NCBI RefSeq assembly: GCF_001428545.1
Contig: NZ_LMHZ01000034.1
Coordinates: forward strand, 58,174-122,173
Reading direction: 5' to 3'
Length of the DNA: 64,000 nucleotides
DNA from: Noviherbaspirillum sp. Root189
Lineage (GTDB): Bacteria > Pseudomonadota > Gammaproteobacteria > Burkholderiales > Burkholderiaceae_D
Shown: positions 8,103 through 20,744 of the stretch, one piece after another
Numbering within the stretch: position 1 is the stretch's first letter
Layout of the letters: each line of letters begins with the position of its first letter
Program-made: the position numbers and the translations under genes
The notes under the pieces: generated by a model
Seen by the model: the letters and a program-made list of their open reading frames with translations, nothing else
Database searches by the model: none
What the model was told of the DNA's origin: nothing

Positions 8103-11100
8103 ATGAGTACAGAACAGGCCGCCGTTCCAAAAATTGACATACACATTGCAGAAGAATCGTTGAATCGATTCAACGAGGTCGTCGCGCCACTGCGGTTAGA
8201 GATACAGGCGGACGGCACTACTGGCTACGCGGCGATTCAAAACAACGTCCCAGTGGTACGTGGCTTCACAATTACGAACACCAGCGAAGTTCCTCAAGAG
8301 AACGTTGACGTTCTCATATTATGCTCACCGGCGTTCGCCGCGCCGGTGAGACTGCGGTTCGAACGGTTAGCGCCAGGGGAAAGTAGGAAAATCGCACCTC
8401 TGGACCTCAAACCTGACCACGGGTATCTCGCGCAATTGGATGAGTCGGAGCGAGCAACAATCTCAATAAGAGCGTTCGCCAATGAAAAGAAAATTGGGGA
8501 GGCCGCACACAGCATCGATGTCCTCGCGTACGAGCAATGGGCGGGCACTCGTTCGCTGCCAGAATTGCTTGCTGCATTCTGCATGCCTAATTCCCGTGTC
8601 GTCGACCAGCTGATTAGCAAGGCTTCGACGTTATTGCGGGACACGAACGCAGAGTTGCAGATGAGCGGGTACCAGGCCAAGAACCGCGAGAAGGTCTGGA
8701 AGCAGATATCTGCACTCTATAGCGCTATCAGTGCCGAAAACCTGCACTACTCGAATCCGCCTGCCTCGTTCGGAAACGACGGCCAGAAGATTCGTACTCC
8801 TGAACGCATACTGGACGGACGGGTAGGCACCTGTCTTGACCTCACCATGCTGTTTGCGTCTTGCCTTGAGCAGGCCGGCATCAATCCAGTCGTGCTTGTC
8901 AAAGAGGGGCATTCGTGGGTAGGCGCATGGTTGGTCGATACATGCTTTCCGACCGCACTGGTGGACGACGTGCAGTCTGTCCGGAAGCGCGTCAAGTCGG
9001 GTGAGTTTATTGTCTTCGAAACAACAGGTGTGGCAACTAGCCAGAAGCCGTCACTACGCTGGGCGTGCTCGACGGGGGAGGAATATCTGCATGAAGAGGC
9101 AACTTTCCTGTATGCGGTAGACATCCGTCGCGCCAGGGAAGTCCAGATTCGCCCGCTACCGTCTCGTTCAACCAACGTGGACCAACCGGTTCAAATCGCA
9201 GACTCGGCACCTCCGGCAATTGAGGACATGCCAGCGCTGCCTCCTCTGGACCCGCTGGCGGTGCCAGCCGTCGAAGTCACTGTCCCTGATACTCCTGAAG
9301 GACGTCTCGCTAAGTGGAAGAGCAAGTTGCTCGACCTGACCTTGCGGAACAAACTAATTAACTTCAAGCCGACAAAGACTTCGTTACGAGTCATTTGCCC
9401 GGACCCGAATGCCCTTGAAGACAGCCTCTCTGAAGGCAAGGAATTCAAGATTCGGCCGTTGCCGCAGCTGATGAGCGGCTCTGATACTCGTGAAGCAGCT
9501 GTTTTTACGGCACGAAACGGTGCTACTCCGCTTGATGCTCTTGCACTGGATGCTCTCGGTCGCCACGAGATTATTGTTGATGTACCGGAAGAAAGCCTCG
9601 AAGGACGACTTGTCGAAATTTTCCGAGCGGCCGGAACTGGCTTGGAGGAAGGCGGTGCGAACACGCTGTTCATGTCATTCGGCCTCCTGCAGTGGCAAGA
9701 AGACAAGGACGCCGAAGCACAGCATCTGGCGCCCATACTCCTCATCCCTGTGACGCTGTCCCGGCAATCAGTGCGCAGCGGTTTCCGTCTTACGCGGCAT
9801 GACGACGACGCCTTGGTCAACCCTACGCTCGTCCAGAAACTCTGGCAGGACTTCAACCTGAAGCTGCCGTCGTTCGACGTCCTTCCTGCCGACGAAAAGG
9901 GAATCGATGTCGGCAAAGTGCTCCAGACGTTCCGATTGCACGTGGCAGAGCTGAAAGGATGGGAGGTCAAGGACCAGGTCCACCTCGGTATTTTCTCGTT
10001 CACAAAGTACCTGATGTGGAAGGACCTTCAAGACCGGCATCAGCAATTGCAGGCGAACAGCGTTGTTTCCCATCTCATCAACAATCCAGGACAAGCGTTC
10101 GCAGGGAACGACATCGGTTTCGAGCCAAGCACTCTTGACCAAACCCATCGACCCCAAGACTTGTTTGCGCCGCTGTTATCTGATTCGTCGCAGCTACGCG
10201 CTATTTGTGTCGCCAGTGATGGCAAGAACCTGGTGGTCGAAGGCCCGCCCGGAACCGGTAAGAGCCAGACAATTACCAACCTTATCTCCCACCTGCTGGC
10301 GACAGGAAAAACCGTTCTGTTCGTGTCAGAGAAAATGGCGGCGCTGGAAGTTGTACATCGCCGGCTTAATTCTCTTGGACTTGGGGCATTCTGCCTAGAG
10401 CTTCACTCTTCGAAGGCAAAGAAGGCAGAAGTACTCAAGCAGCTAGGAACGGCACTCGATGCGGCAAGCTCGAAGACCGTCAAGGAATGGGAAATAGAGG
10501 CGGAGAGGTTGGGAACGCTTCGCCAGGAACTAAATGGCGTAGCAACCGCGTTGCATCGAATCTATCCAAACGACCTCACCGTTTTTGAGGCCATCGGTAC
10601 CTGCATCAAGTATGGCAGCAAGCGCCCAGCACACCTGAGCTGGGCGGACGCCAATACCCATACCCGCTCCGAACTCGAGACATTACGCGAGACCGCACGT
10701 CAGATGGCCGCACTTGCAAGCCAGCTTTCTGACCTTCGTACTCACCCGTTGTCGGCTATTCGGCGCGGTGATTGGACTCCAAGCTGGCAACAGGAATTGT
10801 TAGACGCGGCTACGGCCTTGGAAAAAGCGGTGTCCGACCTACAGTCCAGCACTAGTGACACGCTCAAGCTTTTCGGATTAGATGTGTCGCTGTTTTCGCT
10901 GCGTGACTTCGAATCATTCGACCGCCTTGCCGATACCCTTATTCGGGCACCACGAGTGCCGGCAGGCGTTGCAAAGGCGGCTCACGACGAGTCGGCCCGG
11001 GCCAGACTAGCAATACTGCGTCAGCACGGCATAGCCCGCAAGTCGGCTTGGGATTCACTTGGTGGAGCGTATCGCGAGGATGTGGTCACCTTAAACGCTG

Positions 11101-14072
11101 CAGAAATAAAACTTCAATGGGCTGAGGCCCAGTCTACTTGGTGGCCGAAAAAATGGTTCGCAAAACGGTCTGTCACTTCCAGATTGCGGTTGTTCCGCAA
11201 CGACCAAAACCGGCCAGATGAAGGTGATGTGGCGTCGTTACTGGAAGCCCTCGCAAAAGTAAATGCAGAAGACAAAATGCTGGAGTCTATGGCAGGCGAG
11301 GCATCCACTCTACTGCTAGAGCAGTATGTCTCGTCCAAGACTGACTGGGATGTCGTGGCCGAAAGCGCAAAGTGGGCCGAGGAATTTGCAGATGCAGTCG
11401 CCCGTATGGCAGGGAGCGACCCGGAAGCGGCACGAAGCTTGCGGGAAAAACTACAGCCGTTCGTTACAGAGAATCGTTCAATGCTCAAGGGCGATGGAGC
11501 TGTTGGCGCCAACCTTGTGAAATACAGAGACGGCTACCGAGATTTGTTGTCAAAAATGCAGGTAATTGTTGAGTTAGGCAGCTGCGAGTCCGGGCTTGGC
11601 CTGGACCCTGTTACACCGGCTGTTATATCTCGTCTTCTCGGCATCCTCCAAGGATGGAGTAGAGCACAGCGACAGTTGCAACCTTGGTGCCTGTGGCAGA
11701 GTTCCCGTGCCAAAGCGATTGCTCAAGGATTACAGGGTTTGGTCGTTGCACTTGAAGGCGGCGACGTTTCGTTGGCCGAGGTGCCCGAATACTTTGAATA
11801 CAGCTACCGGAGCTGGTGGGTCAAGAAAGCTATCGACCGCGAACCGACCTTGTGCACGTTTTCGAGCGCCGACCATGAGCGGAAAATTTCGGAGTTTCAG
11901 GCAGCCGACGCACGCTTCCAAAAACTGACCCAGCAATATGTCGCTGCCAAGTTGGCTGGACACATCCCGTCGATGGGCCTCCTTATACCCGGTGTAGAGT
12001 CAGAAATGGGCAAATTACGCCGCGAACTTCAGAAACAGCGTAAGCACATGCCTATTCGTCAGCTTGTGCAGAACCTGCCGACTTTGCTGCCAAAGCTGAA
12101 GCCATGTCTTCTGATGTCTCCGCTCTCCGTTGCCCAGTACCTTGATGCGGCCCATGCGCAGTTTGACGTCGTTGTATTCGACGAAGCATCCCAAATTCCG
12201 GTCTGGGATGCCGTGGGAGCAATTGCCCGCGGAAAACAGCTGATTTGCGTTGGTGACCCGAAGCAGCTGCCGCCGACGAACTTCTTCAATCGCGTGGATG
12301 ATTCAAGCGAAGGGGTTGGAGAAGATGACATTCAGGATTTGGAAAGCATTTTGGACGAGTGCTTGAGTATTGGCATGCTAAAGCTTGGGTTGAACTGGCA
12401 CTACCGGAGTAAACACGAAAGTCTCATTACCTTCAGCAACGTAACGTACTACGACAACAGGCTGGTCACCTTCCCATCGCCCGTTACCGAGGACCGCGGA
12501 GTTCACTTTGAGCACGTAAAGGGTGTGTACGACCGTGGGGGCTCGCGAACGAACAGAGCTGAAGCCGATGCTATCGTAAAATCTATTGAGAATCACTTCC
12601 TTGACCGGTCAAAGCGCCGCCAGACACTTGGCGTCGTCACGTTCAACCAAGCACAGCAGAGTCTCATCGAGAAACTTCTCGACGAGCGCAGACGAGCGTC
12701 CGCCGAATTGGACCAGGCAATTGCGCAAGGGAGTACCGAGCCGCTGTTCATCAAGAACCTTGAAAACGTCCAAGGTGATGAGCGGGATATTATCTATTTC
12801 TCAATCACATATGGTCCGGATGCTTCTGGCAAAGTCAGCCTCAACTTCGGACCGCTGAACCTCGAAGGTGGCCACCGTCGCCTGAACGTCGCGGTTTCGC
12901 GTGCGCGTCAAGGCGTCGTTATCTTCAGTACTCTGTTGCCGGAGCATATCGACCTGTCCAAAGTTCGCGCGGCCGGCGTGCGAGACCTGAAAAATTACCT
13001 CGAATTTGCAATCAGAGGTCCGAGAGCGCTTGTAGAGCAGAGCATCCCTACTGGACAGGAACCTGATAGCCCGTTCGAGTGTGAAGTCATTTCCGCATTG
13101 CGCGAAAAAGGCTGGGAAGTGCATCCGCAAGTTGGCGTTTCCGGATACCGGATTGATATTGGTGTCGTTGACCCTCGCGCACCCGGGCGGTACCTCTTGG
13201 GCGTCGAGTGCGACGGTCGCACCTACCACTCCGGTGCGACGGCTCGCGACCGTGATAGGTTGCGGCAGCATGTGTTGGAGGGGCTGGGTTGGAAGCTACA
13301 TCGCATATGGTCCACAGATTGGTGGCTGAATCCTGAAGAGCCAATGCGGAAGCTATTGGCGAAACTGGAGCAACTCGTTGTGGACGAGCCTGAGGCGCCC
13401 GAGTCCAGCGGGGTAGACGGGACAGATGCTGAAGCAGTGGCCGCCTTAGCTCCTTCGGAGGTCGACCACGTTCCTAGGGATATCGCTTCGCACAGTGACG
13501 CACCGGCACCGGCTGAGACATTGCCTCGCTACGCTGCAGCGGTACTGGAGACAAGCAAACCCGAGTTGTTTTACGACGGACACTCAGATGCGAAACTGAA
13601 AAATCAGCTCTTGTATGTCATCAATCAGGAAGGACCAGTACTAGAGTCGGTGCTTTTCCGGCGCGTAGCCCGTTCCTGGGATTTGTCGCGTACTGGACGG
13701 CGAATCGAAGAGCGATTGAAGTCACTCGCACCTGGCAAGCTAGCTCGCGATTCCGGCGGTTTGACTGTTTATTGGCCAGAGAATGTCGTACCGAACGAGT
13801 GGGATGGTTTCCGGCTTTCAGGAAGCGATGCAGAATCCAAACGAGGCCTCGATGAAGTTGCACCGGAGGAGTTGGGTAATTTGGCATTGTTTGTCCTTTC
13901 CCAAGAAGGAAGTACTCGAGTGGTTGACTTACAGCGGGCGGTCTGCAAGCTTTTGGGAGTCTCTCGCCTTACAAGCGATGCAGAAGCACGACTGAGTAAA
14001 GCATTCACTATTGGGCGAGCAGCTAAGATAATGGTCATTGAAAACGACACTGCTTCATTGAGGCGGACGTAG
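8103..14072 (+). CDS. Giant DUF4011-helicase-nuclease-DUF3320 protein, probable anti-phage defence
   Basis: This is a 1989-residue single-gene nucleic-acid enzyme. An N-terminal region (1-390) contains a transglutaminase-like fold with C244 (GTCLDLTML) and H270 (GHSWVGAW). DUF4011 follows (about 400-600, RLAKWKSKLLDLTLRNKLINF). A superfamily 1 helicase has Walker A GPPGTGKS at 714-721, a Walker B-type FDEAS at about 1359-1363, a QGDER motif and the arginine-rich motif RRLNVAVSRAR (1592-1602); about 600 residues of helical insertion split the motor. A Vsr/PD-(D/E)XK-like nuclease lies at about 1656-1745 (FECEVISAL, YRIDIGVVDP, LGVECDG), then a winged-helix DUF3320 region from about 1815. This order matches DUF4011/helicase/Vsr/DUF3320 proteins proposed as single-gene defence systems (the type called hhe, from memory). 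It sits alone, with no strong ribosome binding site visible. Confidence 0.85.
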   Translation: MSTEQAAVPKIDIHIAEESLNRFNEVVAPLRLEIQADGTTGYAAIQNNVPVVRGFTITNTSEVPQENVDVLILCSPAFAAPVRLRFERLAPGESRKIAPLDLKPDHGYLAQLDESERATISIRAFANEKKIGEAAHSIDVLAYEQWAGTRSLPELLAAFCMPNSRVVDQLISKASTLLRDTNAELQMSGYQAKNREKVWKQISALYSAISAENLHYSNPPASFGNDGQKIRTPERILDGRVGTCLDLTMLFASCLEQAGINPVVLVKEGHSWVGAWLVDTCFPTALVDDVQSVRKRVKSGEFIVFETTGVATSQKPSLRWACSTGEEYLHEEATFLYAVDIRRAREVQIRPLPSRSTNVDQPVQIADSAPPAIEDMPALPPLDPLAVPAVEVTVPDTPEGRLAKWKSKLLDLTLRNKLINFKPTKTSLRVICPDPNALEDSLSEGKEFKIRPLPQLMSGSDTREAAVFTARNGATPLDALALDALGRHEIIVDVPEESLEGRLVEIFRAAGTGLEEGGANTLFMSFGLLQWQEDKDAEAQHLAPILLIPVTLSRQSVRSGFRLTRHDDDALVNPTLVQKLWQDFNLKLPSFDVLPADEKGIDVGKVLQTFRLHVAELKGWEVKDQVHLGIFSFTKYLMWKDLQDRHQQLQANSVVSHLINNPGQAFAGNDIGFEPSTLDQTHRPQDLFAPLLSDSSQLRAICVASDGKNLVVEGPPGTGKSQTITNLISHLLATGKTVLFVSEKMAALEVVHRRLNSLGLGAFCLELHSSKAKKAEVLKQLGTALDAASSKTVKEWEIEAERLGTLRQELNGVATALHRIYPNDLTVFEAIGTCIKYGSKRPAHLSWADANTHTRSELETLRETARQMAALASQLSDLRTHPLSAIRRGDWTPSWQQELLDAATALEKAVSDLQSSTSDTLKLFGLDVSLFSLRDFESFDRLADTLIRAPRVPAGVAKAAHDESARARLAILRQHGIARKSAWDSLGGAYREDVVTLNAAEIKLQWAEAQSTWWPKKWFAKRSVTSRLRLFRNDQNRPDEGDVASLLEALAKVNAEDKMLESMAGEASTLLLEQYVSSKTDWDVVAESAKWAEEFADAVARMAGSDPEAARSLREKLQPFVTENRSMLKGDGAVGANLVKYRDGYRDLLSKMQVIVELGSCESGLGLDPVTPAVISRLLGILQGWSRAQRQLQPWCLWQSSRAKAIAQGLQGLVVALEGGDVSLAEVPEYFEYSYRSWWVKKAIDREPTLCTFSSADHERKISEFQAADARFQKLTQQYVAAKLAGHIPSMGLLIPGVESEMGKLRRELQKQRKHMPIRQLVQNLPTLLPKLKPCLLMSPLSVAQYLDAAHAQFDVVVFDEASQIPVWDAVGAIARGKQLICVGDPKQLPPTNFFNRVDDSSEGVGEDDIQDLESILDECLSIGMLKLGLNWHYRSKHESLITFSNVTYYDNRLVTFPSPVTEDRGVHFEHVKGVYDRGGSRTNRAEADAIVKSIENHFLDRSKRRQTLGVVTFNQAQQSLIEKLLDERRRASAELDQAIAQGSTEPLFIKNLENVQGDERDIIYFSITYGPDASGKVSLNFGPLNLEGGHRRLNVAVSRARQGVVIFSTLLPEHIDLSKVRAAGVRDLKNYLEFAIRGPRALVEQSIPTGQEPDSPFECEVISALREKGWEVHPQVGVSGYRIDIGVVDPRAPGRYLLGVECDGRTYHSGATARDRDRLRQHVLEGLGWKLHRIWSTDWWLNPEEPMRKLLAKLEQLVVDEPEAPESSGVDGTDAEAVAALAPSEVDHVPRDIASHSDAPAPAETLPRYAAAVLETSKPELFYDGHSDAKLKNQLLYVINQEGPVLESVLFRRVARSWDLSRTGRRIEERLKSLAPGKLARDSGGLTVYWPENVVPNEWDGFRLSGSDAESKRGLDEVAPEELGNLALFVLSQEGSTRVVDLQRAVCKLLGVSRLTSDAEARLSKAFTIGRAAKIMVIENDTASLRRT

Positions 14073-14111: not shown

Positions 14112-14675
14112 TTACAGTGTCGTTGATGTTCCATTTTCCGGAAGACGGAGATATTGTGGCGGAACGCTAGAAATCAGCCAAACCCCATTGTCAGCATGGC
14201 GGAATTGATAGCCATCCCGTACCATTGGAAACGTTTCGATAATTAGAACTACCGGTTCGCCTCGGCGCGCGCCCACAGCTTCAGCCGTTTCCCGGTTTGC
14301 AGAGAGATGGACGTCTTGGCGGCGTCCAGGCAGTAAGCCGTGCTTGCGGATGGACGCCGTAAATCTCTGTACGGTACCGTGGTAAAGCACAGGTGGTGGC
14401 GTCTTGACGGGCAATTTCAGGTCCACGGCCACAGAATGCCCTTGGGCAGCACGGATTCGCAGTCTGTCTTCGCTCAATGTAAATCGTTGCTTGTCGCTCT
14501 CCGCGACAATTTGAAGCAGCTCATCGCGATTAATGGGAGTACCTGCCGCTGCAGCTTTTGCTATCAATTCTGCAACGTCAGTCCAGCCTCGTTTGTCGAG
14601 CGTAATACCGATGGCATCTGGCCGATGTCGCAACCATCGCGAGAGCATTTTGCTTTTGTCCTTCAGTGCGTCCAT
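14112..14675 (-). CDS. kptA: KptA/Tpt1-family RNA 2'-phosphotransferase
   Basis: This 187-residue enzyme should transfer an RNA 2'-phosphate to NAD+, giving ADP-ribose 1'',2''-cyclic phosphate and nicotinamide. In yeast this finishes tRNA splicing; the bacterial role is unsettled. The N-terminal winged-helix part has LSRWLRHRPDAIGITLDKRGW, with the Arg-His pair R16-H17. The NAD-binding part has LYHGT (97-101), GRRQDVHLS with R119, and MVRDGYQFRHADNGVWL. R64 (KQRF) would complete the catalytic Arg-His-Arg-Arg set. The gene is full length and intact. It is convergent with the giant helicase (39 bases between ends) and divergent from a coiled-coil gene. Two broken kptA copies lie within 3 kb (15290-15394 and 17147-17546). 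Confidence 0.92.
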   Translation of the reverse strand: MDALKDKSKMLSRWLRHRPDAIGITLDKRGWTDVAELIAKAAAAGTPINRDELLQIVAESDKQRFTLSEDRLRIRAAQGHSVAVDLKLPVKTPPPVLYHGTVQRFTASIRKHGLLPGRRQDVHLSANRETAEAVGARRGEPVVLIIETFPMVRDGYQFRHADNGVWLISSVPPQYLRLPENGTSTTL

Positions 14676-14839
14676 TCGCTACACACCCTTTCCGCTTTAC
14701 GGTCAATCAAGGCCGAGCATGAGGCGTCAACCCGGTCCGAAAAATATTCAAAAAATGTGATGCGTTTTAGCGAGTTATGCCTATACGAACAGTGGTCGAT
14801 TTGCTTCCACGTTTCGTTATTAACTATAGGACAACCAAA

Positions 14840-15175
14840 ATGCTGCAAGAAATTCAATTACTCGAAGAACAATATCGCGATGCTCACAAAGCGTGGCTGG
14901 ACGCTGTGCGGGTGTTGAATGAGCTTCGTCCGAAATACATGGCGGCAAAAGAGGTCCACGACCGAGCTCATGACATGCATCTCTCATTGAAAGAACACGG
15001 ATATGAAGTTGAAGCAGAGGCGCTCGAACCGATGCGCTTGAACTTCGAGAAAGCATTAGCCAAGTTTGCCGAGCCCTATCGAAAGGCCGACGCAGAGTGC
15101 CGGCTTGCTGACAAAGCTGCGGAAGATTGCGGAGCCCGTCTTGAAGCTGCGAAAAAAGCGGCCGATTTGGCATAG
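14840..15175 (+). CDS. Small coiled-coil protein, copy 1
   Basis: This is a 111-residue, highly charged, all-helical protein starting MLQEIQLLEEQYRDAHKAW. I chose the ATG at 14840 because CTATAGGACA lies upstream at normal spacing and the same leader and start recur in the second copy; an in-frame ATG at 14777 is not conserved. Heptad-like runs of L, A, E and K fill the length, interrupted only near residues 54-60. There is no signal peptide, membrane segment or enzyme motif. I do not recognise the family. It is divergent from kptA with 164 bases between starts. The second copy (16118-16504) is clearly homologous, for example in EHGYEVEAEAL versus EHGFQVESDAL. A structural or adaptor role is conceivable, but nothing in the sequence proves one. 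Confidence 0.7.
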   Translation: MLQEIQLLEEQYRDAHKAWLDAVRVLNELRPKYMAAKEVHDRAHDMHLSLKEHGYEVEAEALEPMRLNFEKALAKFAEPYRKADAECRLADKAAEDCGARLEAAKKAADLA

Positions 15176-15243
15176 CCGGATTCAACGCAAATACTTTCAG
15201 ACGGCACTCCGTAAGCTGAGCAATAATTCTTCCTAACTTCAAA

Positions 15244-15270
15244 GGCTTGCCGCGGTATCGGCAAGCCTCA
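15244..15270 (+). terminator. Hairpin terminator of coiled-coil gene copy 1
   Basis: GGCTTGCCG (15244-15252) and CGGCAAGCC (15259-15267) form a nine-pair stem with a six-base loop (CGGTAT), followed by the weak T-tract TCATCGTTTT. The same hairpin follows copy 2, which shows it is part of the duplicated unit. Confidence 0.65.
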
Positions 15271-15289
15271 TCGTTTTCAGCGACCAGTC

Positions 15290-15394
15290 TTACCGCGGTG
15301 TCAGGCCGCGTTTGTCCAATGTAATGTCGATTGCATCTGGTCGATGTCGCAGTCATCGCGAGACCATCTAGTTTTTATCACGCAGAGCGGTCAT
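15290..15394 (-). pseudogene. Remnant of kptA N-terminus
   Basis: Read on the minus strand from the ATG at 15394 the codons give MTALRDKN*MVSR*LRHRPDAIDITLDKRG, clearly the first 30 residues of KptA (compare MDALKDKSKMLSRWLRHRPD in the intact gene), with two in-frame stops. Similarity fades just after the GW-equivalent position. No NAD-binding half follows. This fragment lies right after the terminator of coiled-coil copy 1, in the place where a second kptA should stand if the kptA/coiled-coil pair had been duplicated together. Confidence 0.8.
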
Positions 15395-15450
15395 TTGCTA
15401 TGCGTCCCTTCAGAGGATGCCGAATTCAGTATCTACGACAGATGTTGTGC

Positions 15451-15816
15451 TCAAGCCGGCAGTATCATTTCGCGCGCAACCACAGCACTTTGTCGCTCGA
15501 ACAAGGTTGCGCCGTTTTCAAGACGCGCGGCGGCGGCAGCAAGTGCGGCGTTGTATTCTGCGACGGTTTTCGGAAGCGCATATGGTGCATTGGTAAGGAG
15601 CCGAAATACAACCAGCTCCGTTTCGGTAAGTCGTAAGGTTGAATTCACTCTTAGCATAACGTTAATAATAAAGGGAAACGTTCTACGGTGGGGGGAATCA
15701 TATTGAATCGTTGCCAACCTCTGAGATTCAAAACAAAGTAAGTTCAATCGATTCGCGGCTAGCGAAGATTGAACGACGGTCTCTTTTGCCGCGATACTGA
15801 CTCGGACAGGTTTCAC
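15451..15816 (-). CDS. Small hypothetical protein
   Basis: This is an open frame of up to 121 residues from a GTG at 15816; an internal ATG at 15657 would give 68 residues (MLRVNSTLRLTETELVVFRL). The C-terminal part reads like real protein: a helix-rich segment LTETELVVFRLLTNAPYALP then an alanine-rich helix. The pattern around LTETELVVFRLL resembles the first helices of a winged-helix or response-regulator-like DNA-binding domain, but this is only a resemblance. It lies ten bases downstream of the stop of a truncated frame (15827-16005) in the same direction, so the two may be remains of one operon. No homologue is recognised. Confidence 0.4.
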   Translation of the reverse strand: MKPVRVSIAAKETVVQSSLAANRLNLLCFESQRLATIQYDSPHRRTFPFIINVMLRVNSTLRLTETELVVFRLLTNAPYALPKTVAEYNAALAAAAARLENGATLFERQSAVVAREMILPA

Positions 15817-15826
15817 GGCTTTGTTT

Positions 15827-16005
15827 TATGATGTCACGGGCTCCCCAAGCTTAAGAATTTTGCGTACATCTTTCAGTCCAGCGATGCCAATAATGGTTCC
15901 GTTTGCCAGGTCTGGTAACGAGTTCTGAATGCCATTCACCATATCAAATGGGCACCGCAAAAAGGCGACATCTCCTGTCTTGGCCGGAGGAGATTGGCAG
16001 CAATC
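15827..16005 (-). pseudogene. C-terminal fragment of an unknown gene
   Basis: Minus-strand codons from 16005 to the stop at 15829-15827 read CPFDMVNGIQNSLPDLANGT followed by IIGIAGLKDVRKILKLGEP, which looks like genuine coding sequence. There is no convincing start: upstream it meets a stop at 16008-16006, right at the left border of the second duplicated unit (about 16014). I read it as the tail of a gene cut by the recombination that created the duplication. The family is not recognised. Confidence 0.45.
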
Positions 16006-16013
16006 CTAAGCCT

Positions 16014-16560
16014 CAAAATAATTTTCAGAAAATGTGATGCGTCTTTGCAGGTAGTGCCTATACGTACCAGCGGTCGAGTTGTTTCCACCTTCCATTATTA
16101 ACTATAGGACAAGTAAAATGCTGCAAGAAATTCAACTCCTCGAAGAGCAGTATCGTGATGCCCACAACGCCTGGCGTGACGCCGTACAGGCGGTAGATGA
16201 ACTTCGTTCCCGATACGAAGCGGCGAAGGAACTCCACAACCGAGCGCATGACCTGCACGCCACATTGAAAGAACACGGATTTCAAGTTGAATCAGATGCA
16301 CTTTGGCCGATGGTCTTGCAATTTAAAACGGCATTGCTCGAAGTGACGACTCCATATGTCAGGGCCGACGACGCGTATAGGCTTGCTGACAAAGATGTTG
16401 AAGAGTGTCTCACTCGTCTTGAAGCTGCGAAAAAGGCGGCCGGTTTTGGCATAGCCGAAGTCAAATCGAATACTTTCAGACGGCCAACGCGCTCCGTAAG
16501 CTGAGCAATAATTCTTCCAACCTCCAAATGGCTTGCCACGGTATCGGCAAGCCTTTTCCT
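16014..16560 (+). repeat. Duplicated unit, copy 2 (leader, coiled-coil gene, terminator)
   Basis: This is the second, diverged copy of the unit at 14740-15270, offset by about 1.28 kb in the same orientation. The leader is almost as conserved as the coding part, so the promoter or leader is likely functional in both copies. Confidence 0.85.
16118..16504 (+). CDS. Small coiled-coil protein, copy 2
   Basis: This is a 128-residue paralogue of 14840-15175, starting with the identical MLQEIQLLEEQYRDAH and preceded by the same ACTATAGGACAA leader. Charged heptads and the sequence ADKxxEECxxRLEAAKKAA are shared. The C-terminus is longer (FGIAEVKSNTFRRPTRSVS) because the stop of copy 1 is replaced and reading continues into what is 3' untranslated sequence in copy 1. 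No signal peptide or membrane helix is present. The two proteins have diverged substantially while keeping the reading frame and the helical pattern, which argues that both are or were under selection. The function is unknown. Confidence 0.65.
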   Translation: MLQEIQLLEEQYRDAHNAWRDAVQAVDELRSRYEAAKELHNRAHDLHATLKEHGFQVESDALWPMVLQFKTALLEVTTPYVRADDAYRLADKDVEECLTRLEAAKKAAGFGIAEVKSNTFRRPTRSVS

Positions 16561-16562
16561 TT
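16530..16562 (+). terminator. Intrinsic terminator of coiled-coil gene copy 2
   Basis: GGCTTGCC (16530-16537) pairs with GGCAAGCC (16546-16553) and is followed by the T-rich tract TTTTCCTTT. It is homologous to the hairpin at 15244-15267. Confidence 0.75.
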
Positions 16563-16598
16563 GCAGTATGCACTCGGCCTTCGGGCATCTGGAAGTTG

Positions 16599-16985
16599 CT
16601 ACTGGTCAGGCTCTTTGCATACCCCCGGCACCGGCCATCCGAGTAATTCTGCAACGCGCCTGAACGCCCATCTCAATTGAGCTTCTGTTCCGTATCGACC
16701 TCCGGCAGCGACGGCTCGTTCGAAGTACTGTGCAATGATGTCGTGCTCCGACATATGCGCCCGTTTTCCCCGTTTCGTTTCTGGACACTGCTTCACGAAG
16801 TGCTGGACCAACGATTCGCTATATGCCCAATCGTGCCGCCTCTCTGGGGGCGTATTCCCGGGGATGTAAAACTTTCCCTCAAATTTGACCATAGCAAATT
16901 TCGGCTGCGTGCCACCGACGGCGCTCGCGATGTCGACACATGGATAGTCTGTAGGAACCTCGTCATAATTTGGAGTATCTGCCAT
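16599..16985 (-). CDS. Conserved hypothetical protein
   Basis: This is a 128-residue protein from the ATG at 16985 (MADTPNYDEVPTDYPCVDIA). A longer in-frame start at 17090 would add an unlikely hydrophobic tail. The sequence has KFAMVKFEGKFYIPG, a WAYSESLVQHFVKQCPETKRGKR helix and a C-terminal ELLGWPVP motif. I recall similar small proteins of unknown function in Burkholderiales genomes, marked by TQPKFAM, KxGKR and LGWPVP. There is no catalytic motif, signal peptide or membrane helix. It points toward the terminator of coiled-coil copy 2 (convergent). Confidence 0.6.
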   Translation of the reverse strand: MADTPNYDEVPTDYPCVDIASAVGGTQPKFAMVKFEGKFYIPGNTPPERRHDWAYSESLVQHFVKQCPETKRGKRAHMSEHDIIAQYFERAVAAGGRYGTEAQLRWAFRRVAELLGWPVPGVCKEPDQ

Positions 16986-17146
16986 GTTTTCTGTCTGGCG
17001 GGTGGGCGTTATGTTCGATTTAATAAAGACGATTGCCACAATTGCGATGAGAAGCCTCGAAGCCGTCAACCCAACGGGCACTGCAATCAATAATATTGAT
17101 GCACATTATTCGTCGCTAAGTAAATCACAAATGATTGAAGACATTT

Positions 17147-17546
17147 TTAGGGGTTCCTGTAGTGATTTTCGGCTTTCATCAGGATTGATTTAGTCATCAT
17201 TCCGCCTACAAGATGTAGCGGCCCCCGAGGAGGTAGGATTAGAACCGCTATGATGTTTCGTTTCTCGGAAACCGAATATATTTTGTTGGCACGTTTGAGA
17301 TAAGCCAAACCCCATTTGTCCGCACACCTGAATTCAAAACCGTCCCGGACCATAGAATGCGCTTCAATAACAAGAACAACCGGTGTACCTCGTCGCGCTG
17401 CCACTGTCATACCACGAACCCCATTCGTAGAAAGGCACACGTCGTTGCGGCTGCCAGGGACAAGACCATGGTCGCGAATCCGAGGCATGAGATTTCTGAC
17501 GATACCGTGGAATAAAAATGGGGCGGCGATATAACCGACGAGGTTA
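17147..17546 (-). pseudogene. Remnant of kptA C-terminal half
   Basis: The minus-strand frame ending at 17147 reads APFLFHGIVRNLMPRIRDHG, then LVPGSRNDVCLSTN, ARRGTPVVLVIEAHSMVRDG and FEFRCADKWGLAYL. It lines up over its whole length with residues 94-187 of the intact KptA (LYHGT, GLLPGRRQDVHLSAN, MVRDGYQFRHAD). The N-terminal winged-helix part with the catalytic Arg-His is missing; upstream the frame is closed by a stop near 17549. The DVHLS motif has become DVCLS. It cannot be a working enzyme alone. Its sequence differs enough from the intact gene to be an old or separately acquired copy. Confidence 0.8.
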
Positions 17547-17630: not shown

Positions 17631-18053
17631 CTATCTGCTTCTATAGATTTCTTTGACTCCGGCGAATGACACTGGCGAATTCCAATTGCCTGCGCTTCTA
17701 TAAATCGTTATCCCTGAAGACAGAAAGAAGATATGTGTGCCGTCCTGTGTTGAAACAATCTGCTCAATAGGTTCAAGGATGAACCCGTTCTGTGCAACCG
17801 ATGGCATTCGTGAATAGAGGCGAAGCTCTGTCCATGTATTTCCTTGTAGCCGTCTAACTAAGGTAAGAGCGCTCTCAAGCTCAGCAAGAATGTACGTGGT
17901 CACAGATGGCAAGCCGTCAGCGTGAGAACAACTCTCGACTTGGAACCAAGCGTCGTTAGGGATGGCAACCATTGACCAACGGCGGACACCGCGTTCCGGG
18001 CTTTCGAGTGCGTCACGTATTTGGGTGTTAATGGAGCCTGCAAATTCCAACAT
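17631..18053 (-). CDS. Hypothetical protein
   Basis: This 140-residue protein starts MLEFAGSINTQIRDALESPE. AAGG seven bases upstream of the ATG at 18053 supports this start. The sequence alternates short strands and helices (RRWSMVAIPNDAWFQVESC, LAELESALTLVRRLQGNTW) and has no signal peptide, membrane segment or known motif. I do not recognise it. It is transcribed toward the kptA remnant and away from the XRE regulator. Confidence 0.55.
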   Translation of the reverse strand: MLEFAGSINTQIRDALESPERGVRRWSMVAIPNDAWFQVESCSHADGLPSVTTYILAELESALTLVRRLQGNTWTELRLYSRMPSVAQNGFILEPIEQIVSTQDGTHIFFLSSGITIYRSAGNWNSPVSFAGVKEIYRSR

Positions 18054-18512: not shown

Positions 18513-18770
18513 ATGACAGTTTCCGAAACAAAACCATCCTCGCGCATGAAAGTTGCGGAAAACGTACGCGTACTACGTATGGCGATGGGAGTCTCACAAG
18601 AAGCTTTGGCTTTGAAAGCCGGGTTTCATCGGACGTATGTTAGTCAGGTCGAACGGGAGATGGTCAACCTCACGGTGGATAACCTCGATAAGCTTGCGAG
18701 GGCATTAAAAGTTGATTCCGCGAGGCTTTTGGCAATACCGAGGAAGAAGAAGGAAAAAGCCTCCCCTTGA
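18513..18770 (+). CDS. XRE-family (Cro/CI-type) transcriptional regulator
   Basis: This is an 85-residue protein consisting of little more than one HTH_XRE domain (about residues 12-72): a helix ENVRVLRMAMGVSQEALALK, recognition helix region GFHRTYVSQVEREMVNLTVD, then NLDKLARALKVDSARLLAI and a lysine-rich tail. Size and layout resemble restriction-modification controller proteins and phage-type repressors. Four 15-bp repeats lie directly upstream (18430-18489) and could be its own operator. It is followed after 70 bases by an unknown 227-residue gene in the same direction, probably co-transcribed. No methylase or nuclease gene is adjacent, so a controller role in a restriction system is not supported. 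Confidence 0.85.
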   Translation: MTVSETKPSSRMKVAENVRVLRMAMGVSQEALALKAGFHRTYVSQVEREMVNLTVDNLDKLARALKVDSARLLAIPRKKKEKASP

Positions 18771-19524: not shown

Positions 19525-19800
19525 GAGGTCGGTCACTTCTGCCGAACTCCTACGGCAGTAAGTTTGCTATCTTCAATACCGCCCGTTTGATGATGCACTT
19601 CCCACGACGGATTCCTCGTCCTCAACGGATTCTATGCCCGGCGCTGAGTCGTATGTAACACAACGCCCCCTTGGCCTGTGGTTTCCCTTTGCCAAGTAAA
19701 AGAATACTAACTCGCTCCAAATAACTTCAATCGCTATATCACTGTAGCGGTGGCAAAGAGCAATCTCATTTCCGCCCACCGCATCAGACAGGAGCGACTG

Positions 19801-20028
19801 ATGACAAAATATTTGGATATTTGGGAGCTAGGTGAGCTTCTTGGGCGAGCGCCCGAAACTATACGAAAGCAGATGAGAAGCGACCCTAGACGAGTGCCGC
19901 CGAGAATGCACATTCCTGGTAAGAAGATGCCGAGATGGAGCGCTTCTGAGGTCGAGGCTTGGCTAGAGGAGCAAGCTTTTCTATATAAGGACGCAGAGCT
20001 CAAAAGGTACTCATTAGATGAAGAATGA
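19801..20028 (+). CDS. Small helix-turn-helix protein, excisionase/AlpA-like
   Basis: This is a 75-residue protein starting MTKYLDIWELGELLGRAPET. The ATG at 19801 has an excellent ribosome binding site (AGGAG, six bases upstream), better than an in-frame start at 19750. The layout is that of MerR-like DNA-binding domains of excisionases and phage AlpA regulators: a first helix IWELGELLGRAPETIRKQM, a wing-like segment RVPPRMHIPGKKMPRWSAS, then EVEAWLEEQ. Such genes usually sit close to an attachment site, and here the broken comM begins about 110 bases downstream. The frame continues open past the TGA to a TAA at 20084-20086 (see findings). The identification is by pattern only. Confidence 0.65.
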   Translation: MTKYLDIWELGELLGRAPETIRKQMRSDPRRVPPRMHIPGKKMPRWSASEVEAWLEEQAFLYKDAELKRYSLDEE

Positions 20029-20138: not shown

Positions 20139-20744
20139 GTACTTGATGAACTGCCGGAGTTCGATCGCAAGGTCCTCGAAGTCTTGCGCGAACCCCTTGA
20201 GTCGGGACACATCACGATTTCACGCGCGGCACGACAGGCCGACTTTCCCGCCCGTTTTCAATTGATCGCCGCGATGAATCCCTGCCCCTGTGGTTACCTC
20301 GGCCATGTTGCCAACCGTTGCCGTTGCACGCCGGATGTGATTGCGCGCTATCAGGACAAGATTTCCGGGCCGCTTCTCGACCGCATCGACATGCAGATTC
20401 AAGTCTCCGCATTACCGCATGACGAGTTGCTGCGACAAGCTAACGGCGAAGCGTCGAGTGCGATCGGCGATCGGGTGGAGCTTGCGTTCGACAGGCAATT
20501 GCGGCGCCAAGGTAAAGGCAACCATGCATTGACGACGGCCGAAATCGATCTGCACTGCAAACCTGATGATGCAGGTGAACAGATCCTGCGTACGGCGATG
20601 ACGCGCCTGCATTGGTCGGCGCGCGCGTATCACCGCGTGCTGAAGGTGGCGCGCACGATTGCCGACATGGACGGTACCGGGATTATCACGAAGGCACATG
20701 TGGCTGAAGCGATTCAGTACCGGCGCGCGTTGCGTGAGCATTAA
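20139..20744 (+). pseudogene. comM: 3' part of comM/yifB (Mg-chelatase-like AAA+ helicase), 5' part missing
   Basis: The frame open from 20094 becomes recognisable at VLDELPEFDRKVLEVLREPL, the Walker B region of ComM, and continues with the family's conserved C-terminal half: SGHITISRAARQADFPARFQ, LIAAMNPCPCGYLGH, the cysteine pair of NRCRC, SGPLLDRIDMQIQV (arginine-finger region) and the C-terminal TIADMDGTGIITKAHVAEAI. About 200 of some 500 residues remain; the N-terminal Lon-like part and the Walker A loop are absent. ComM drives branch migration during natural transformation. The break falls exactly where the accessory DNA begins, so insertion of the island has inactivated the gene, with its 5' part expected beyond the left edge. 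Confidence 0.88.

Follow-up and report, generated by a model that had tools for sequence, protein, structure and literature searches.

Enzymes of the KptA/Tpt1 family (PF01885) and of the HAD_SAK family act on RNA ends; the latter family (PF18143) is named for Swiss Army Knife RNA repair proteins, large proteins that include HAD as a single domain. Excerpts of one review assign KptA to the clean-up of RNA ends, repairing RNA cut during phage conflict, and count HAD among the enzymes associated with related sirtuin systems (PMC9503650). Here, a locus of Noviherbaspirillum sp. Root189 is compared with these systems. It lies in a 64,000-nt stretch of contig NZ_LMHZ01000034.1 (positions 58,174–122,173 of the forward strand; ‘the window’, to which coordinates refer unless stated otherwise) and is headed by an intact kptA (kptA1, 14112–14675, minus strand) that is divergent from, and 164 bp apart from, a gene encoding a coiled-coil (CC) protein of 111 aa (CC1, 14840–15175, plus strand). 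A kptA remnant, a second CC gene (CC2), a small gene termed P5 and another kptA remnant follow. The intact kptA, both CC genes and both relics had been named in a first-pass annotation of the sequence, and all were confirmed by sequence searches. With moderate confidence, we read the locus as a copy of a modular gene set for RNA-end repair, horizontally mobile and located in defence islands, assembled around a distinct KptA clade and frequently duplicating and decaying. The members of this set are KptA, HAD_SAK-type phosphatases, CC with its own conserved leader, and P5, together with a family designated SSY in other genera.

The cluster KptA, a predicted RNA 2′-phosphotransferase, resembles the described KptA/Tpt1 family in having a full-length domain, an NCBIfam equivalog match and the Arg-His-Arg-Arg tetrad, but it differs in belonging to a separate clade with recurrent company. 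Predicted NAD-ADP-ribose RNA-repair systems, in which KptA occurs with 2H and Macro, likewise pair a HAD phosphatase with an ADP-ribosyl enzyme at loci related to conflict, although the excerpts that describe them (PMC9503650) made no mention of CC, P5 or SSY, and scans of a limited set of proteins met no 2H or Macro gene. The likeness to Swiss Army Knife proteins is that HAD_SAK genes adjoin kptA; unlike the domain of those proteins, however, the cluster HAD_SAK genes stand alone, at 166–246 aa. Finally, an anti-phage helicase-nuclease of ProA/Hhe type is the direct neighbour of the window locus at 8103–14072, but this neighbour is outside the cluster and other loci carry other defence genes. 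No description of the gene set was found in the searches made of openly licensed PubMed Central papers, and these searches also yielded nothing useful on PDC-S37 (the PADLOC family matched by that helicase), on the anti-phage ProA/DUF4011 protein (from the list of results) or on KptA with Swiss Army Knife.

A KptA clade with recurrent partners

Locus content was read with home-made profiles for CC, P5, HAD, HAD2, SSY and KptA, and the same families were found at loci of 11 other genomes. The window locus comprises kptA, two CC genes and P5. Elsewhere, kptA is accompanied by HAD in G184, a kptA fragment by P5 and HAD in G141 and by HAD in G115, while G195 has P5, HAD and CC. Three genomes of another genus have kptA, HAD, HAD2, SSY and CC (G304), the same families with a divergent HAD (G319), or kptA, HAD, SSY, a broken P5 and CC (G314); an intact P5 also lies ~14 kb (G304) and ~27 kb (G319) from the cluster. 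HAD, SSY and CC make up the G377 locus. In G159 the families are divided between two contigs, P5, HAD and CC being on the first and kptA, HAD, SSY and a weak HAD2 piece on the second, and in G215 CC lies near a contig end, with P5 and HAD adjacent on another contig. Additional HAD or P5 pieces occur in G159, G377 and G115.

In the loci searched, such company goes with one kind of KptA. The kptA search gave 114 rows, made up of nine from the cluster, two second pieces and 100 further loci that were fetched, with G105, G257 and G017 left out; 88/100 fetched loci had ~7 kb per side, and 12 were shorter (contig ends, or a smaller stretch taken). None of these 100 loci had CC, P5, HAD2 or SSY, and one (G364) had HAD_SAK. 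In a tree of 98 KptA proteins, which leaves out eight fetched loci lacking a KptA of 150 residues as well as the G141 and G115 fragments, the seven cluster KptAs (including that of G364) formed a single clade with support of 100/100. At least one partner (CC, HAD_SAK, P5 or SSY) was present at 7/7 loci of this clade, compared with 0/99 other loci in the stretch searched (91 in the tree and eight unplaced fragments); the Fisher p of 4e-11 for this comparison is too optimistic, since the cluster loci are related and the counts are therefore not independent. HAD_SAK adjoins 6/7 of the clade kptAs. Moreover, G319 and G159 carry both kinds of KptA, and in each the partners stand solely at the cluster-clade copy. 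As a separate observation, 94 phage records encode KptA relatives of <60% identity, mainly phages of Erwinia, Dickeya, Klebsiella and Serratia.

The kptA-CC pair, whose recurrence beyond close relatives the first-pass annotation had put forward for checking, is indeed found outside the genus: in G304, G319 and G314, CC is convergent with an intact kptA across a gap of 180–224 bp, and a nine-sequence CC profile recovered the same three genomes from that other genus (3/40 species). The pair is nevertheless too narrow as a unit, each gene being found without the other and both belonging to a modular set that also includes HAD_SAK phosphatases, P5 and SSY. Within the family, a single-sequence CC1 search matched 3/392 genomes, one of which (G123) was unconfirmed in a later comparison and was rejected as a CC homologue. 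A four-sequence profile matched 16/385 genomes at E ≤0.01, eight of them credible (E ≤2.4e-6); the other eight (G162, G045, G109, G182, G202, G238, G248 and G323; E 7e-4 to 0.01) were discarded, their coiled-coil resemblance probably being due to chance, and G182, examined further, showed none of the cluster families. In an order sample of 399 genomes (12 other same-family genomes being among the 21 rows listed), CC was found in its own genome only, and no relatives were found in viral contigs or plasmids. A match in an Acidobacteria metagenome-assembled genome (43% over 35 residues) was set aside; a profile scan found no cluster family there.

A similar leader was present upstream of 9/9 CC genes, consisting of a GCCTATAC-type box (with one variant GCCTACAC and one ACCTATAC) and, ahead of the start codon, a stretch resembling AGGACAA. 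In the window, leader comparison places it at 14740–14839 for CC1, with the GCCTATAC box and AGGACAA ahead of the start codon, and, together with the duplication described below, at 16017–16117 for CC2 (both plus strand). Scanning for the leader motif gave two matches away from CC (L015 and L080), approximately chance level by a rough estimate. Terminator-like hairpins lie 3′ of CC1 (15243–15268, plus strand) and 3′ of CC2 (16530–16553), but with three found in the region versus a mean of 4.5 in shuffles there is no excess of such hairpins. CC is predicted to form two long antiparallel helices (AlphaFold2 predicted local distance difference test, pLDDT, 95.5 for CC1), a fold for which no PDB match was found at E ≤0.001.

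P5 (16599–16985, minus strand), the ‘unknown gene’ of the first pass, encodes a small protein that matches no Pfam, PADLOC or NCBIfam family and whose predicted structure, from the lone sequence, has a pLDDT of 42. Its homologues lie near HAD_SAK in G141, G195, G159 and G215; P5 was detected in 55/343 family genomes searched and in no viral contig. HAD was found ≤1.5 kb from P5 in 9/30 P5 loci, three of which (G195, G159 and G141) were already known. SSY has a sub-threshold match to PF09722, the Xre/MbcA/ParS antitoxin toxin-binding domain (E 0.0011, 19.3 bits vs 24.5). Two further observations concern P5: single genomes carry as many as four matches (G297, G305), fragments included, resembling a family in rapid turnover; and on a replicon of Paraburkholderia caribensis MBA4 (L122 6181–8285) two HAD_SAK-like genes adjoin a P5 homologue, with no kptA or CC found in the 16 kb examined.

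Catalytic residues and selection

The kptA1 product matches Pfam PTS_2-RNA (E 1.9e-42), with the PF01885 domain above cut-off over its full length (residues 7–168, 145.7 bits vs 26), and NCBIfam NF002014 at 242.5 bits (cut-off 239). The tetrad given for CthTpt1 in an excerpt of its description is Arg18, His19, Arg68 and Arg121 (PMC6333775); kptA1 keeps this Arg-His-Arg-Arg tetrad as R16, H17, R64 and R119, residues being read by eye from an alignment to 6e3a. The ratio of non-synonymous to synonymous differences (pN/pS) was 0.20–0.30 for kptA1 against five clade members, at which synonymous sites are saturated, 0.39 for CC1 against CC2, and 0.43–0.59 for other CC pairs. Such low values give no sign of the diversifying selection that had been suggested for this region; to judge from the sequences, selection looks purifying, and the two CC genes are probably both used.

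Duplication and decay

The CC unit, including leader and hairpin, was duplicated over 552 bp at 77.0% identity, yielding CC2 (16118–16504, plus strand, 128 aa), whose protein is 63% identical to that of CC1. Beside it are two matches to parts of kptA that are beyond chance. An N-terminal part with stops, kptA2 (15281–15394, minus strand), covers residues 1–38 (E 4.4e-8), while a C-terminal part, kptA3 (17251–17521, minus strand), covers residues 95–184 with its frame broken: residues 94–163 match at 17315–17524 (E 1.5e-17), and residues 162–185 continue in another frame at 17248–17319 (E 0.003). Relative to kptA1, the N-part shows 77.1% DNA identity over 96 bp and 75% in protein-level comparison, and the C-part 72.7% DNA identity over 154 bp, with 56% and 68% in its two frames. 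These unequal identities and the arrangement of the parts along the strand argue against one simply split copy, which was rejected as the source of both remnants, although a rearranged copy could still account for them. Of the three kptA copies proposed at first pass, one is thus intact and two are remnants; the remnants do not overlap, and two extra copies are the simplest, if unproven, reading. An open reading frame of 121 aa at 15451–15816 was rejected as a gene, having no match in Pfam, PADLOC or NCBIfam.

The identity of the N-remnant to kptA1 (77.1%) is so close to that of the CC duplicates (77.0%) that it looks approximately the same age as the CC duplication. In position the C-remnant corresponds to the intact kptA of G184, both lying to one and the same side of a 140-aa gene, XRE-type and HTH_17-like genes and the 3′ part of comM (see below), and it is about equally distant from kptA1 and from the G184 kptA; on both grounds it is best read as a decayed ancestral copy. 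The 552-bp CC unit and the kptA N-part would then have been duplicated in this genome beside an older kptA relic marking the ancestral position, with one kptA remaining intact. Duplication and decay, as had been proposed, are evident here, but gain and decay are not peculiar to the window: kptA, HAD or P5 fragments are also present at other loci.

Defence neighbours

Strong PADLOC matches, to known or candidate defence genes, were obtained at 9/11 cluster loci (73 proteins of ≥200 residues, scanned at 1e-30), in keeping with the earlier view that such loci adjoin defence genes. In the window, the neighbour is a superfamily 1 (SF1) helicase with DUF4011, MTES_1575 nuclease and DUF3320 domains (8103–14072, plus strand), of ProA or PDC-S37 type (NCBIfam NF058533, 2311.7 bits, cut-off 1500; PADLOC PDC-S37, 1344 bits). 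Other loci have PDC-S36, a candidate only (G184), SIR2-HerA and a CBASS cyclase (G141), a CBASS cyclase (G115), SIR2-HerA (G195), a CBASS cyclase and phospholipase (G304 and G314), TerY, STK_OB and PP2C (G319), or Avs3a (G377). The two G159 loci gave one partial match to candidate PDC-S40 (2.4e-31 over 81 residues), and the other G159 proteins that were scanned singly gave no PADLOC match at 1e-10. Examples of CC, KptA, P5, HAD, HAD2 and SSY themselves matched no PADLOC family at the thresholds used. As a control, 11 random other kptA loci (105 proteins), one of them with a fragmentary kptA, were scanned; the matches listed, covering 25 of 60 families, were all to Gabija or retron proteins, so that a contrast between cluster and control in the number of defence-bearing loci is not established.

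Possible roles of the gene set

That these genes keep company across genera despite shuffling makes a common task likely, and repair of RNA in conflict may be that task. KptA would strip 2′-phosphates using NAD+ and the HAD enzyme would take off terminal phosphates, whereby RNA could be restored after cleavage by metal-independent ribonucleases (toxins, suicide effectors, phage or competitor nucleases), and CC might serve as scaffold or regulator of KptA or of damaged RNA. A more specific proposal, which we offer only tentatively, is that KptA-CC-HAD-P5(-SSY) constitutes an undescribed conflict module for RNA end-repair or RNA-end-sensing, in which CC, from a presumed conserved promoter, would work with the dedicated KptA clade to protect against ribonuclease attack by phages, competitors or co-resident suicide defences. 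If true, this would supply a natural setting for bacterial KptA, which has no clear role. A KptA clade that recurs with a handful of partners next to defence genes provides concrete genes for experiments, and sets accessory KptA apart from more widespread KptA.

Several observations weigh against a mobile repair set. The window locus lacks a HAD gene, and the only HAD_SAK match of the genome is on a different contig, where the 20 kb examined showed none of KptA, CC and P5; nor did an RNA ligase turn up in the cluster, no ligase profile having been run. CC and KptA are separable, and hence not an obligate pair: G195, G215 and G377 have CC, with no kptA found in the genome, and G184 has an intact kptA and no CC in its genome at E 0.01. 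The G304 CC is interrupted by stops where it matches the tail of other CCs, and the orientation of kptA and CC is divergent in the window and convergent in the other genus. Finally, shared islands could by themselves assemble these genes.

This last point is the core of the alternative that survives best, a possible one that we nonetheless rather doubt, in which unrelated small cargo genes of one island type are shuffled, duplicated and broken by recombination in a variable zone, and the company of KptA is functionally meaningless. Gene content that differs between loci, common fragments and a position near the end of the comM island would all suit such passengers. They would less readily explain why the loci span several genera, why in G319 and G159 the partners accompany one kind of KptA only, why P5 and HAD lie close together in 9/30 P5 loci and again on the Paraburkholderia replicon, or why CC keeps its leader in 9/9 cases.

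It is unlikely that the cluster KptA is instead an NAD+-dependent toxin or capping enzyme that ADP-ribosylates RNA and is restrained by CC, P5 or SSY, with the relics as leftovers of a toxic gene. Tpt1/KptA-type enzymes ADP-ribosylate RNA 5′-phosphate ends, according to an excerpt of one report (PMC11833690), and the sub-threshold SSY match to PF09722, common decay and the defence-island setting are consistent with an effector; however, the 2′-phosphate-binding tetrad is conserved, and in G184, whose kptA is intact, neither CC nor P5 was found in the genome and SSY was absent from the 18 kb examined, a situation that a strict toxin ought not to allow. G364 is locally alike, but its contig ends ~240 bp from kptA. 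CC as a strict antitoxin of KptA was rejected on the same G184 evidence (no CC match in that genome, E 0.01). Ordinary local duplication and decay peculiar to this genome, with no wider meaning, is most improbable, the 552-bp duplication at 77% agreeing with it but the recurrence of the families at loci of 11 other genomes refuting its narrow form.

The island in comM

comM is cut in two in this genome: its 5′ part, outside the window, ends at C34:23615 and its 3′ part starts near window position 20145 (20145–20744, plus strand), with ~54.7 kb between them. The 3′ part is the right border of an island of ~55 kb (window 1–20144 plus G000:C34:23616–58173), and the kptA cluster lies near its right end. 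There, the cluster is followed by the 140-aa gene (17631–18053, minus strand), also found at the G184 kptA locus (40% identity, 9e-33), an XRE-type regulator near the island end (18513–18770, plus strand; HTH_3, 2.6e-12) and, at the island end, a small HTH_17-like gene (19750–20028, plus strand; below the Pfam cut-off), the latter two having similar genes in G184 and G195. In G184, comM is likewise split, by an island of its own with kptA in the same end zone, and the neighbourhood common to the window and G184 extends to 18053 and further. G195 has homologues of the XRE and HTH_17-like genes alongside P5, HAD_SAK, SIR2-HerA and CC; it has no kptA, and no comM part was present in the stretches fetched.

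Other island genes were noted in passing. In Noviherbaspirillum sp. Root189, the 5′ part of comM is followed by four genes of 201–862 aa, just one with a weak Pfam match. A secreted-looking, non-specific endonuclease gene occurs in the islands of four related genomes (L050 2021–2851, L018 10989–11819, L015 3785–4375 and L090 8678–9508), the Endonuclease_NS match having been made for the L050 copy and the other three judged alike by eye from their first residues; in G195 and G215 this gene is directly 3′ of CC. An HNH-endonuclease gene is present in the islands of G195, G215 and G184 (L080 7694–9152, L018 12416–13480 and L015 5729–7221); it precedes CC in G195 and G215, and a HIT-like gene lies ahead of it in G195 (by eye) and G184.

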